From NCBI RefSeq assembly GCF_009834915.1, contig NZ_WVHS01000001.1, forward strand, positions 124,001 to 188,000: DNA of 64,000 nucleotides. The letters are read 5' to 3'. Shown piece after piece: positions 24,150-25,574 of this stretch (position 1 is its first letter; every line of letters begins with the position of its first letter). The DNA is from Hufsiella ginkgonis (GTDB lineage Bacteria > Bacteroidota > Bacteroidia > Sphingobacteriales > Sphingobacteriaceae). The notes beneath the pieces were generated by a model, which worked only from the letters and a program-made list of their open reading frames with translations, did not search any database and was not told where the DNA came from. The position numbers were made by a program, and so were the translations under genes.

Positions 24150-24207
24150 TGGTACCCATTAGCACCCGCCCTGTTTGCGGCTCTGAACCGGGAAAAGATC
24201 AAATAAA

Positions 24208-24239
24208 TTTGTGTAACTCACAAGTTACCTATATATTTG
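24208..24239 (+). promoter_or_regulatory. Bacteroidota-type promoter of the SRPBCC-ArsR-DinB operon
   Basis: TTTG (24208-24211) and TATATTTG (24232-24239) match the -33 and -7 consensus elements TTTG and TAnnTTTG, with a 20-base spacer, the optimal distance. Transcription would begin near 24246, inside the second operator. Confidence 0.75.
24213..24228. promoter_or_regulatory. Operator 1, between the -33 and -7 elements
   Basis: GTAACTCACAAGTTAC has perfect 6-bp arms around four bases. It fills the promoter spacer, so a bound repressor would block polymerase. It is matched by a second site exactly 28 bases downstream. Confidence 0.7.
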
Positions 24240-24240
24240 C

Positions 24241-24256
24241 GTAACTTCAAAGTTAC
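24241..24256. promoter_or_regulatory. Operator 2, at the transcription start
   Basis: GTAACTTCAAAGTTAC has perfect 7-bp arms around two bases and begins two bases after the -7 element. It lies four bases before the ATG at 24261. With operator 1 it forms a pair suited to an ArsR-type dimer, whose gene is the second in this operon. Confidence 0.7.
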
Positions 24257-24260
24257 TCAT

Positions 24261-24713
24261 ATGGCAAAAATTATTAAACACCAGTATTTTTTCGCCCATC
24301 CCGTAGAGACGGTTTGGGAGTACCTCACAAATTCCGCGCTCATGGGGCAGTGGCTCATGAAAAATGATTTTCAGCCCGTCGTTGGGCATGAATTTCAATT
24401 TCGTACCGGCGGGAGAGCTAACCTGAATTTCGACGGCGTCTTTTACTGCAAGGTGCTGAATATCGAACCCTTCAAAACTTTAAGCTATTCCTGGAACTGC
24501 GGGCCGGGCGAAGGACGGATCACGCTGGAATCGGTGGTGACCTGGCAGCTGGAACCCAGGGAAAACGGCACCGAAGTATTCCTCGATCACCGTGGCTTCA
24601 ACCAGGAACAGAACCTCGACATGTATCATGGCCTGTTGCACGGCTGGCCGGAGAAATTCCAGAATATCGAAAGACTTTTAAATCCTGAATCCAATGGCCA
24701 TTCCCACGCTTGA
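24261..24713 (+). CDS. SRPBCC (AHSA1-like) domain protein
   Basis: Cytoplasmic protein of 150 residues with the START/Bet v 1-like fold of the AHSA1 family: FFAHPVETVWEYLTNSALMGQW, HEFQFRTG, KTLSYSWNCGPGEG and a C-terminal LLHGWPEKFQNIERLL helix. These proteins have a hydrophobic cavity and bind small ligands; none is known for this member. The ATG at 24261 follows the operator pair, and the upstream in-frame extension to 24237 would begin inside the promoter. The 3' end overlaps the ArsR gene by 20 bases, so the two are translationally coupled. In most such pairs the regulator is encoded first; here the order is reversed. Confidence 0.9.
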   Translation: MAKIIKHQYFFAHPVETVWEYLTNSALMGQWLMKNDFQPVVGHEFQFRTGGRANLNFDGVFYCKVLNIEPFKTLSYSWNCGPGEGRITLESVVTWQLEPRENGTEVFLDHRGFNQEQNLDMYHGLLHGWPEKFQNIERLLNPESNGHSHA

Positions 24714-25017
24714 TACCTTCCAGGTCATCGGGGATCCCAGCCGGCGTAAGATGCTGATGCTGCTCTCCGGGGATAGTTTGACGATCAACAGCCTGGCAGA
24801 TAATTTCGACATGAGCCGCCCTGCCGTTTCCAAGCATGTGAAAATATTGGAGACTGCCGGGTTTATATCCATACAGGATATCGGGCGGGAACGCTATTGC
24901 ACGCTCAAAAAGGACGGCTTCGAAGAGCTGCAGGCCTGGCTGAACTACTTCGATGAATTCTGGACATCAAAACTGAAAAAACTGGAAATTTTATTAAACA
25001 GCAAACTGCCTAATTAA
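24694..25017 (+). CDS. ArsR-family winged-helix repressor
   Basis: Transcription factor of 107 residues. The winged helix-turn-helix spans about residues 5-90: IGDPSRRKMLMLLSG, LADNFDMSRPAVSKHVKIL with the recognition helix, and the wing IQDIGRERYCTL. No metal-binding cysteine pair of the CxC type is present (the single Cys is in the wing), so it does not look like a metal sensor. The paired operators in its own promoter suggest autorepression, relieved by a small molecule that may be the ligand of the SRPBCC protein. It overlaps that gene and precedes a secreted DinB-like gene by 29 bases. Confidence 0.92.
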   Translation: MAIPTLDTFQVIGDPSRRKMLMLLSGDSLTINSLADNFDMSRPAVSKHVKILETAGFISIQDIGRERYCTLKKDGFEELQAWLNYFDEFWTSKLKKLEILLNSKLPN

Positions 25018-25046: not shown

Positions 25047-25574
25047 ATGAAAATTAAACGTTTAACAATCGCAACAGGCCTGGTCATAGCGGGGCAATTC
25101 GCCATCGCGCAGGTAAAAACAGCCGAGCTGGTAAAGGAATGGGAACGGTCGAAAGCCTATACAAAGGAATACCTGGACGCCATGCCGGAAAGGAGCTACG
25201 CGTTAAAGCCCACGCCGGAAATACGCTCTTTCGCAGCGCAAAATTTACACCTGGCAGATGCCAATTACGGCCTCGCCGCTGCCGCGCTGGGCATACAAAG
25301 CCCGTTTGAACTGGGAATATGGGAAAAAACCGGCGGAAAATCCAAAGCCAATGTGATCAAGATCGTGCTGGCCAGTTATGATTTCGTGATCGGTGAGATT
25401 ATAAAACTGTCTGACGCGCAACTGGATAACCCTGTTAAAATGCCGGGAAGTTTTGATATGTCTAAACGAATTGCGTTGGCGAAGGTTTTTGAACACCAGG
25501 TACATCACCGGGGCCAAACCACGGTGTATCTTCGACTGGCAGGCGTCACCCCACCACAGGAAAAGTTATTTTAG
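25047..25574 (+). CDS. Exported DinB-family protein
   Basis: Protein of 175 residues with a signal peptide (MKIKRLTIATGLVIAGQFAIAQ) followed by a DinB/YfiT four-helix bundle. The three potential metal-binding histidines are visible: one in AAQNLHLADAN and two in FEHQVHHRGQTTVYLRL. Members of this superfamily include metal-dependent thiol transferases (for example bacillithiol or mycothiol transferases), but most, like this one, have no known reaction. Export is unusual for enzymes using cytoplasmic thiols. It lies 29 bases after arsR and is probably under the same repressor. Confidence 0.85.
   Translation: MKIKRLTIATGLVIAGQFAIAQVKTAELVKEWERSKAYTKEYLDAMPERSYALKPTPEIRSFAAQNLHLADANYGLAAAALGIQSPFELGIWEKTGGKSKANVIKIVLASYDFVIGEIIKLSDAQLDNPVKMPGSFDMSKRIALAKVFEHQVHHRGQTTVYLRLAGVTPPQEKLF

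Follow-up and report, generated by a model that had tools for sequence, protein, structure and literature searches.

Autoregulated ArsR operons, the sigmaA promoter boxes of Bacteroidota and residue-base correlations in other regulator families are all already known. The metal ligands of ArsR/SmtB proteins are sets of cysteine and histidine residues at alpha3, alpha5 or N-terminal sites, and the -33 box of Bacteroidota sigmaA promoters is TTTG. SdpR-type proteins are ArsR-family autorepressors adjoining their target gene, the arrangement also proposed for the srpbcc-arsR operon described below. For flavobacterial sigmaA, an excerpt of one report places the -7 box at -12 to -5 (PMC9723704). In Frankia an ArsR-like gene may form an operon with the gene of an AHSA1-type protein, and the extract of that study states that the direct link of ArsR/AHSA1 expression 'has not been elucidated' (PMC4531530). 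In the MerR (PMC5045206), IclR (PMC8222616) and GntR (PMC4494728) families, operator letters have been correlated with residues of the DNA-binding domain, and LacI regulons and sites have been treated by comparative genomics (PMC4052901), as far as partial texts of these four papers go. Among the matches listed for open papers, covering titles and the starts of abstracts, there was no residue-base code for ArsR; the study of Desulfovibrionales ArsR proteins by Kazakov et al. (2013), the nearest related work and cited in the partial text of PMC8222616, falls outside that scope.

Here we analyse a promoter from Hufsiella ginkgonis, within a window (the whole stretch of DNA that was analysed) of 64,000 nucleotides. 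We judge it highly likely that positions 24208-24261 form the sigmaA promoter of a srpbcc-arsR operon that regulates itself through two operators bound by its own ArsR, whose residues 43, 44 and 47 would read bases 2, 4 and 5 of each half-site.

Results

Promoter and operon structure

The features of the locus are collected in Table 1. In the stretch inspected (24180-24265), both palindromes precede the ATG of the SRPBCC gene. The boxes at 24208-24239 have the form of a Bacteroidota sigmaA promoter (TTTG and TAnnTTTG at a spacing of about 20 bp), as do those of relatives; scans for sigma-70-type promoters and terminators listed no site here. A sequence-only reading of the same DNA had placed TTTG, a 20-base spacer and TATATTTG at exactly these positions. 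It had also described two 16-bp palindromes with GTAACT/AGTTAC half-sites 28 bp apart, and both are indeed perfect: the starts of GTAACTCACAAGTTAC and GTAACTTCAAAGTTAC are separated by 28 bp and all four half-sites read GTAACT. That one palindrome occupies the spacer is plain from the sequence. The earlier reading put the other at the transcription start, and this would hold: with the -7 box occupying -12 to -5, the position given in the excerpt of PMC9723704, +1 would lie near 24244, within the second palindrome. Operator 1 would then span approximately -31 to -16 and operator 2 approximately -3 to +13.

Table 1. Features of the srpbcc-arsR locus, numbered within the window
Feature	Position	Strand	Basis
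-33 element, TTTG	24208..24211	+	sequence
Putative operator 1, GTAACTCACAAGTTAC, inside the promoter spacer	24213..24228	.	pattern counts; kept in closest relatives
-7 element, TATATTTG, after a 20-bp spacer	24232..24239	+	sequence
Putative operator 2, GTAACTTCAAAGTTAC, across the inferred start point	24241..24256	.	sequence, pattern counts
SRPBCC/AHSA1 protein, operon gene 1	24261..24713	+	Pfam AHSA1, E 1.9e-19
ArsR-family regulator, gene 2, 20-nt overlap with gene 1	24694..25017	+	Pfam HTH_5, E 2e-12; model pLDDT 90.1
Recognition-helix codons, residues 42-55	24817..24858	+	model helix H42-55; covariation
DinB-family protein, possible gene 3	25047..25574	+	Pfam DinB, E 1.8e-13

Perfect matches to GTAACTN4AGTTAC in the window are GTAACTCACAAGTTAC and GTAACTTCAAAGTTAC only. 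With up to two mismatches the pattern has four matches against a shuffle mean of 1.38, a result that is weak taken alone because 5 of 100 shuffles reach the same count. A tandem score, which asks for four like half-sites of any sequence, gave 69.6 for this locus, whereas none of 1,140 dinucleotide shuffles made from the loci of the scan went above 49.2. Promoter and palindromes are confirmed as real, and they are far from chance.

The regulator is the second gene of the operon, as the earlier reading had it. It belongs to the ArsR/SmtB winged-helix family (PF01022, 47.2 bits against a cut-off of 22), and its model is a winged helix that matches ArsR structures with Z scores of 11-14, the best being 3f6v (Z 14.0), SrnR (7p6f, Z 13.7) and 3f6o (Z 12.6). 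Residues 43, 44 and 47 are located at the beginning of the recognition helix of this model. The first gene is an SRPBCC/AHSA1 protein (PF08327, 70.5 bits against a cut-off of 22.1). Among its 107 residues the ArsR has a single cysteine (C69) and a single histidine (H48) and no metal-site pair, so that it does not group with the metal-sensing ArsR/SmtB proteins and the label 'non-metal' attached to it beforehand fits. Its score for the SdpR family (NF033789) is 55.2, below the cut-off of 100. A DinB-family gene follows arsR after a gap of 29 bp; we rejected it as a fixed member of the operon, since among the matches for loci L003-L032 it appears only in L003 and L004. In L004 (G185), the nearest relative, the DinB match (1854-2389 in the arsR orientation) is split over two frames that overlap, as would be expected if the gene were frameshifted or the sequence contained an error.

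Conservation and genomic distribution

Loss of the sites upstream of orthologous operons had been named as evidence that would tell against the operators. The check did not bear this out: of the 15 closest relatives (L004-L018; 47-93% identity), 14 carry both sites in an unchanged promoter frame, and L017, also in this group, keeps one site and has a decayed second. Their half-sites read GTAACT or GTAACC and deviate little otherwise. Two of these relatives have the sites 26 bp apart and one has them 29 bp apart with the -33/-7 spacer still at 20, so the spacing tracks the promoter boxes and not the helical repeat. The SRPBCC gene is upstream of arsR in all but L017 of the 15; the more distant L020-L032 have arsR first with SRPBCC behind it in 12 of 13 cases, and 94 of the 116 loci with long flanks carry an SRPBCC gene beside arsR on the same strand. 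In L008 and L011 two consecutive SRPBCC genes lie between operators and arsR, with operators only ahead of the first.

A genome search for GTAACTT(n)AAGTTAC-type pairs, proposed in the sequence-only reading as a way to define a regulon, was run and gave no sign of one beyond this promoter. Perfect GTAACTN4AGTTAC occurs in the 5,208,024-bp genome only at the two sites of the srpbcc-arsR promoter, as if the switch served this one operon. Allowing as many as two mismatches gives 127 matches, little more than the 111 of a reversed control pattern, and a wider regulon was rejected; two one-mismatch sites elsewhere, and further two-mismatch sites, are among the matches listed.

The same genome holds eight ArsR hits. 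Seven, counting the window ArsR, show tandem palindromes that are arranged alike but vary in their letters: GTAACT, GTAACC-like, GCAAGC, G(A/C)AACC, GCAATC, GCAACT and GTAG(T/C)T. The eighth, the distant L039, was excluded from this comparison. The sites of L034, L035, L036 and L037 differ from one another by 1-3 of 12 letters; with as little as one letter between them, insulation among these four is doubtful. The closest paralogue (L033, 52% identity; 99228-99539 of G000:C1, outside the window) has, some 490 bp upstream, a pair of sites with looser letters and a spacing of 28 bp.

The tandem-palindrome promoter layout, with one 16-bp palindrome in the spacer and one over the start, is widespread among related ArsR loci: 274 of 319 score above the 99% shuffle level. 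These 319 are all loci then collected except L001, L002 and L039; nearly all are from Bacteroidota, some genomes are counted twice, and L194 comes from a record titled Rickettsiales. In the first scan 202 of 229 loci passed this level and 164 lay above all 1,140 shuffles. The 45 failures comprise 27 from that scan and 18 of the 87 in the fresh set described below, where some (L275, L289, L305, L307 and L320) have a weaker pair and others none. A TAnnTT-type -7 box lies between the sites in 260 of the 274 scored loci. Both promoter elements could be placed in 248 loci; 220 of these have a spacer of 20, and in 238 a TTG stops one base short of site 1. The separation of the sites is 26 bp in 177 scored loci and 28 bp in 67; it is 28 in 41 of 59 loci where over 300 bp separate the sites from arsR, which is the case in SRPBCC-first operons, and 26 in 161 of 210 whose sites are close to arsR.

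A proposed residue-base code in Bacteroidota

We wrote the operator family as GNANNN-N4-NNNTNC, with bases numbered within the half-site. In an open scan of 100 ArsR columns the top rank went to residue 43 for base 2, to 44 for base 4 and to 47 for base 5; the scan gave no clear reader for base 6, and residue 46, considered for base 5, was not informative. At position 43 proline goes with T2 and glutamine with C2 or A2; at 44 alanine goes with A4 and threonine with G4; and at 47 lysine goes with C5 and glutamine or leucine with G5. From P43, A44 and K47 the code predicts T2, A4 and C5, which is what the window locus has in each of its four GTAACT half-sites, this locus being part of the set from which the rules were derived.

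In the training set (the first 202 scored loci of the 229 scanned), P43 went with T2 in 434 of 488 half-sites and with C in 2, Q43 with C2 in 258 of 300 and with T in 1, K47 with C5 in 552 of 612 and with G in 4, and L47 or Q47 with G5 in 175 of 184 and with C in 1. The rules for residues 43 and 47, together with a third giving base 4 to residue 41, were fixed in writing before fresh loci were collected. Of 87 such loci 69 scored: T2 accompanied P43 in 147 of 148 half-sites, Q43 had C2 in 100 and A2 in 24 of 124, and base 5 followed K47 as C in 208 of 228 and Q47 or L47 as G in 22 of 24. This set held near-copies of training proteins (4 at ≥95% and 7 at ≥90% identity), and for that reason the test was repeated on fresh loci less than 90% identical to any earlier ArsR, 62 of 80 scoring. 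Here P43 had T2 in 123 of 124 half-sites; Q43 had C2 in 98, A2 in 22 and T2 in none of 120; K47 had C5 in 204 of 224 and never G5; and Q47 or L47 had G5 in 22 of 24 and never C5. Thus the rules for residues 43 and 47 held in loci collected after they were written. Locus L258 carries Q43 with Q47, a combination absent from the 191 proteins of the tree below, and three of its half-sites read GCAAG, the fourth GCAAT.

The third rule fared differently. Fresh loci with S41 and T44 (L303 and L321) also have G4 and residue 44 outranks 41, which is why 44 was put in place of 41 after the fact. Over the 274 scored loci, all 32 half-sites that go with T44 (8 loci) have G4, and those with A44 have A4 in 1033 of 1048; this rule was drawn after the fresh test and made no independent prediction. 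Of the 274 scored loci, 269 have A3 in at least three half-sites; over the 260 distinct ArsRs that these provide, agreement is 260/260 for Q47 or L47 with G5, 260/260 for T44 with G4 and 256/260 for Q43 with a base 2 other than T, the exceptions being one P43, one T43 and two A43. The code is loose in that Q43 takes C or A at base 2 and K47 also tolerates T at base 5. In the 73 loci with Q43 and K47 (e.g. L035, L293, L299 and L301), A2 occurs in 57 of 146 outer and 4 of 146 inner half-sites, a bias that makes the operator pair mirror-like about the -7 box; P43 K47 loci show an opposite, weaker trend (15 of 256 outer, 35 of 256 inner).

Tests of shared descent

Residues 43, 44 and 47 also track ArsR subfamilies, and part of the association is therefore shared descent. 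We built trees without the recognition-helix columns, using 191 proteins for branch counting and 260 for Pagel tests. All seven changes between P and Q at residue 43 fall on branches with a change between T and C at base 2, and same-branch co-changes of 43 and 2 number 8 against a null mean of 0.36 and a maximum of 3 in 2,000 draws. For 47 and 5 there are only 3 (null mean 0.42, maximum 4), as many as for the cross pair 47~2. We ascribed this low count to ties on neighbouring branches and therefore used a likelihood test instead. Comparing dependent with independent evolution, 2ΔlnL is 74.3 for 43~2, 58.4 for 47~5 and 14.7 for 44~4; the cross pairs, at 22.0 (43~5) and 12.0 (47~2), indicate some signal of shared history. 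The pairs 43~2 and 47~5 stand well above the cross pairs, whereas 44~4, with few changes, does not.

Loci beyond Bacteroidota

The cross-phylum set comprised 28 plasmid loci from the best 60 of 573 matching records. A qualifying palindrome lies within 130 bp upstream in 22 of them, against 3.34 expected in shuffles; L324, L329, L340, L347, L349 and L350 have no listed site, L324 having a tandem GATACC palindrome without A3. Streptomyces and Nonomuraea ArsRs with RPA.SR have GTAACC and two Rhodococcus ArsRs with RPAVSQ have GTAAGC; Neorhizobium QPAMSQ goes with ATAAGT, Sinorhizobium LPAVSK with TTAACC and LAAVSK of the haloarchaeon Natronococcus with TCAACC. Among plasmid loci for which a site is listed, K47 or R47 accompanies C5 in 16 of 18, although L328, counted among these 16, has a chance-like site, and Q47 accompanies G5 in 3 of 3 with a site, two further Q47 loci having none listed. 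The exceptions to the base 5 rule are L331 and L339 (K47 without C5), whose listed sites, like that of L328, appear chance-like. Elsewhere L331 has L42 without T1, L323 has P43 with A2, L343 has A43 with T2 whereas two haloarchaeal relatives have C2, and S44, which goes with A4 in Bacteroidota, goes with G4 in L330.

These loci suggest tentatively that residue 42 reads base 1 (R with G1, L or F with T1). In Bacteroidota R42 is nearly invariant (201 of 202). Drafted after the first 12 plasmid loci, where it fits 8 of the 9 that have both such a residue and a site, the rule was tried on the next 16 and fits 9 of 9 of that kind, L347 and L349 having the residue and no site. Some of these nine are near relatives, hence the rule stays tentative. 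The alphaproteobacterial ArsR of Microvirga lotononidis (L344, QPAVSK) has two palindromes 27 bp apart, so that paired sites are not confined to Bacteroidota. A GFA-family gene follows ArsR-SRPBCC in L325, L350 and L334 (Sinorhizobium, Rhizobium rhizoryzae and Natronococcus), a possible hint of function.

Discussion

The neighbouring ArsR is very probably both the binder of these sites and an autorepressor. The best evidence for its binding here is that the letters of the sites co-vary with its recognition helix, which points to the ArsR encoded in the operon as their reader. The steps of binding, repression, derepression and base contact that we infer would run as follows. An ArsR dimer may occupy each operator, one between the -33 and -7 boxes and the other over +1, and most likely acts as a repressor that obstructs RNA polymerase at each of them, a mode of action that fits the position of the sites. 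The N-terminal part of the recognition helix would read the letters, residue 43 facing base pair 2, 44 facing 4, 47 facing 5 and 42 probably facing 1. Release would follow a signal, probably not a metal; the lack of a metal-site pair and the SRPBCC partner lead us to guess that the inducer is some hydrophobic small molecule, or else the SRPBCC protein. The window ArsR would be one of seven paralogues in its genome that share a promoter layout and differ in half-site letters.

That the pair of sites serves activation, or repression through a loop or a cooperative tetramer in place of simple occlusion, is unlikely: the sites are kept as a pair in most loci, which suggests that the pair matters, but both overlap the core promoter, separations of 26 and 28 bp do not make whole turns of the helix, and the spacer is 20 in most loci. 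Somewhat less likely still is that the match between residues and bases reflects only the common ancestry of ArsR subfamilies and their promoters, with no direct reading of bases. Residues outside the helix are indeed informative (column 31 for bases 2 and 5, column 32 for base 4), L47 occurs only together with Q43 among the 191 proteins, and the Pagel value for 44~4 is no larger than those of cross pairs. Against this, every P/Q exchange at 43 shares its branch with a T/C exchange at base 2, the Pagel value is several times larger for 43~2 and 47~5 than for the cross pairs, test ArsRs less than 70% identical to the training set still follow the rules (31 of 35 scored), and Q47 goes with G5 in two Rhodococcus and one Neorhizobium ArsR.

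A 16-bp palindrome by itself names no protein, and inexact copies of the pattern do occur in the genome, as they would if a regulator encoded elsewhere used these sites to control many promoters. We consider this very improbable given that the perfect pattern is found at a single promoter in 5.2 Mb, that the loose count barely exceeds its reversed control and that the site letters co-vary with the helix of the ArsR in the same operon. Least probable of all is a metalloregulator operon. The protein does score 63.9 with NCBIfam HTH_metalloreg, over the cut-off of 55, and its plasmid relatives are annotated as metalloregulators, but one cysteine and one histidine form no metal-site pair and the partner is an SRPBCC protein, neither a transporter nor a reductase.

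More broadly, we lean towards the view that SRPBCC-paired ArsRs follow a near-modular code, residues 42, 43, 44 and 47 specifying base pairs 1, 2, 4 and 5, in Bacteroidota, Actinomycetota, Pseudomonadota and haloarchaea, and that duplicated operons become private switches when one or two of these residues change along with the operator. If this is true, at least seven repressors, each serving a single operon, may coexist in one genome, several being mutually insulated, and their operators could be predicted from protein sequence. Plasmid relatives are labelled metalloregulators in public records, though the window ArsR has no metal-site pair; for such genes a protein-based rule would yield a binding site and a target operon, and it would allow a direct test of how duplicated repressors avoid cross-talk. 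The seven paralogues of one genome would be a natural set from which to construct independent repressor-operator pairs for Bacteroidota.

Compared with known systems, the -7 box of the srpbcc-arsR operon is as described for the Bacteroidota sigmaA promoter in the excerpt of PMC9723704, the difference being that here spacer and start region are filled with putative operators. The ArsR model has its winged-helix fold in common with SrnR (7p6f), 3f6o, 3f6v, 2oqg, SmtB and CzrA (Z 11-14); the window ArsR differs in having no metal-site pair, and those structures supply no operator code. SdpR-type autorepressors differ by the sub-threshold NF033789 score and by the partner, which in Hufsiella is an SRPBCC protein. 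The MerR, IclR and GntR studies, in the parts of them cited above, apply the same idea as the ArsR code to other families, and the LacI study (PMC4052901), likewise in part, is comparative genomics of a family other than ArsR. Relative to the ArsR-AHSA1 operons of Frankia, as given in the extract of PMC4531530, the present locus adds a putative operator, its position in the promoter and residue-base rules, together with the two-site layout of Bacteroidota.
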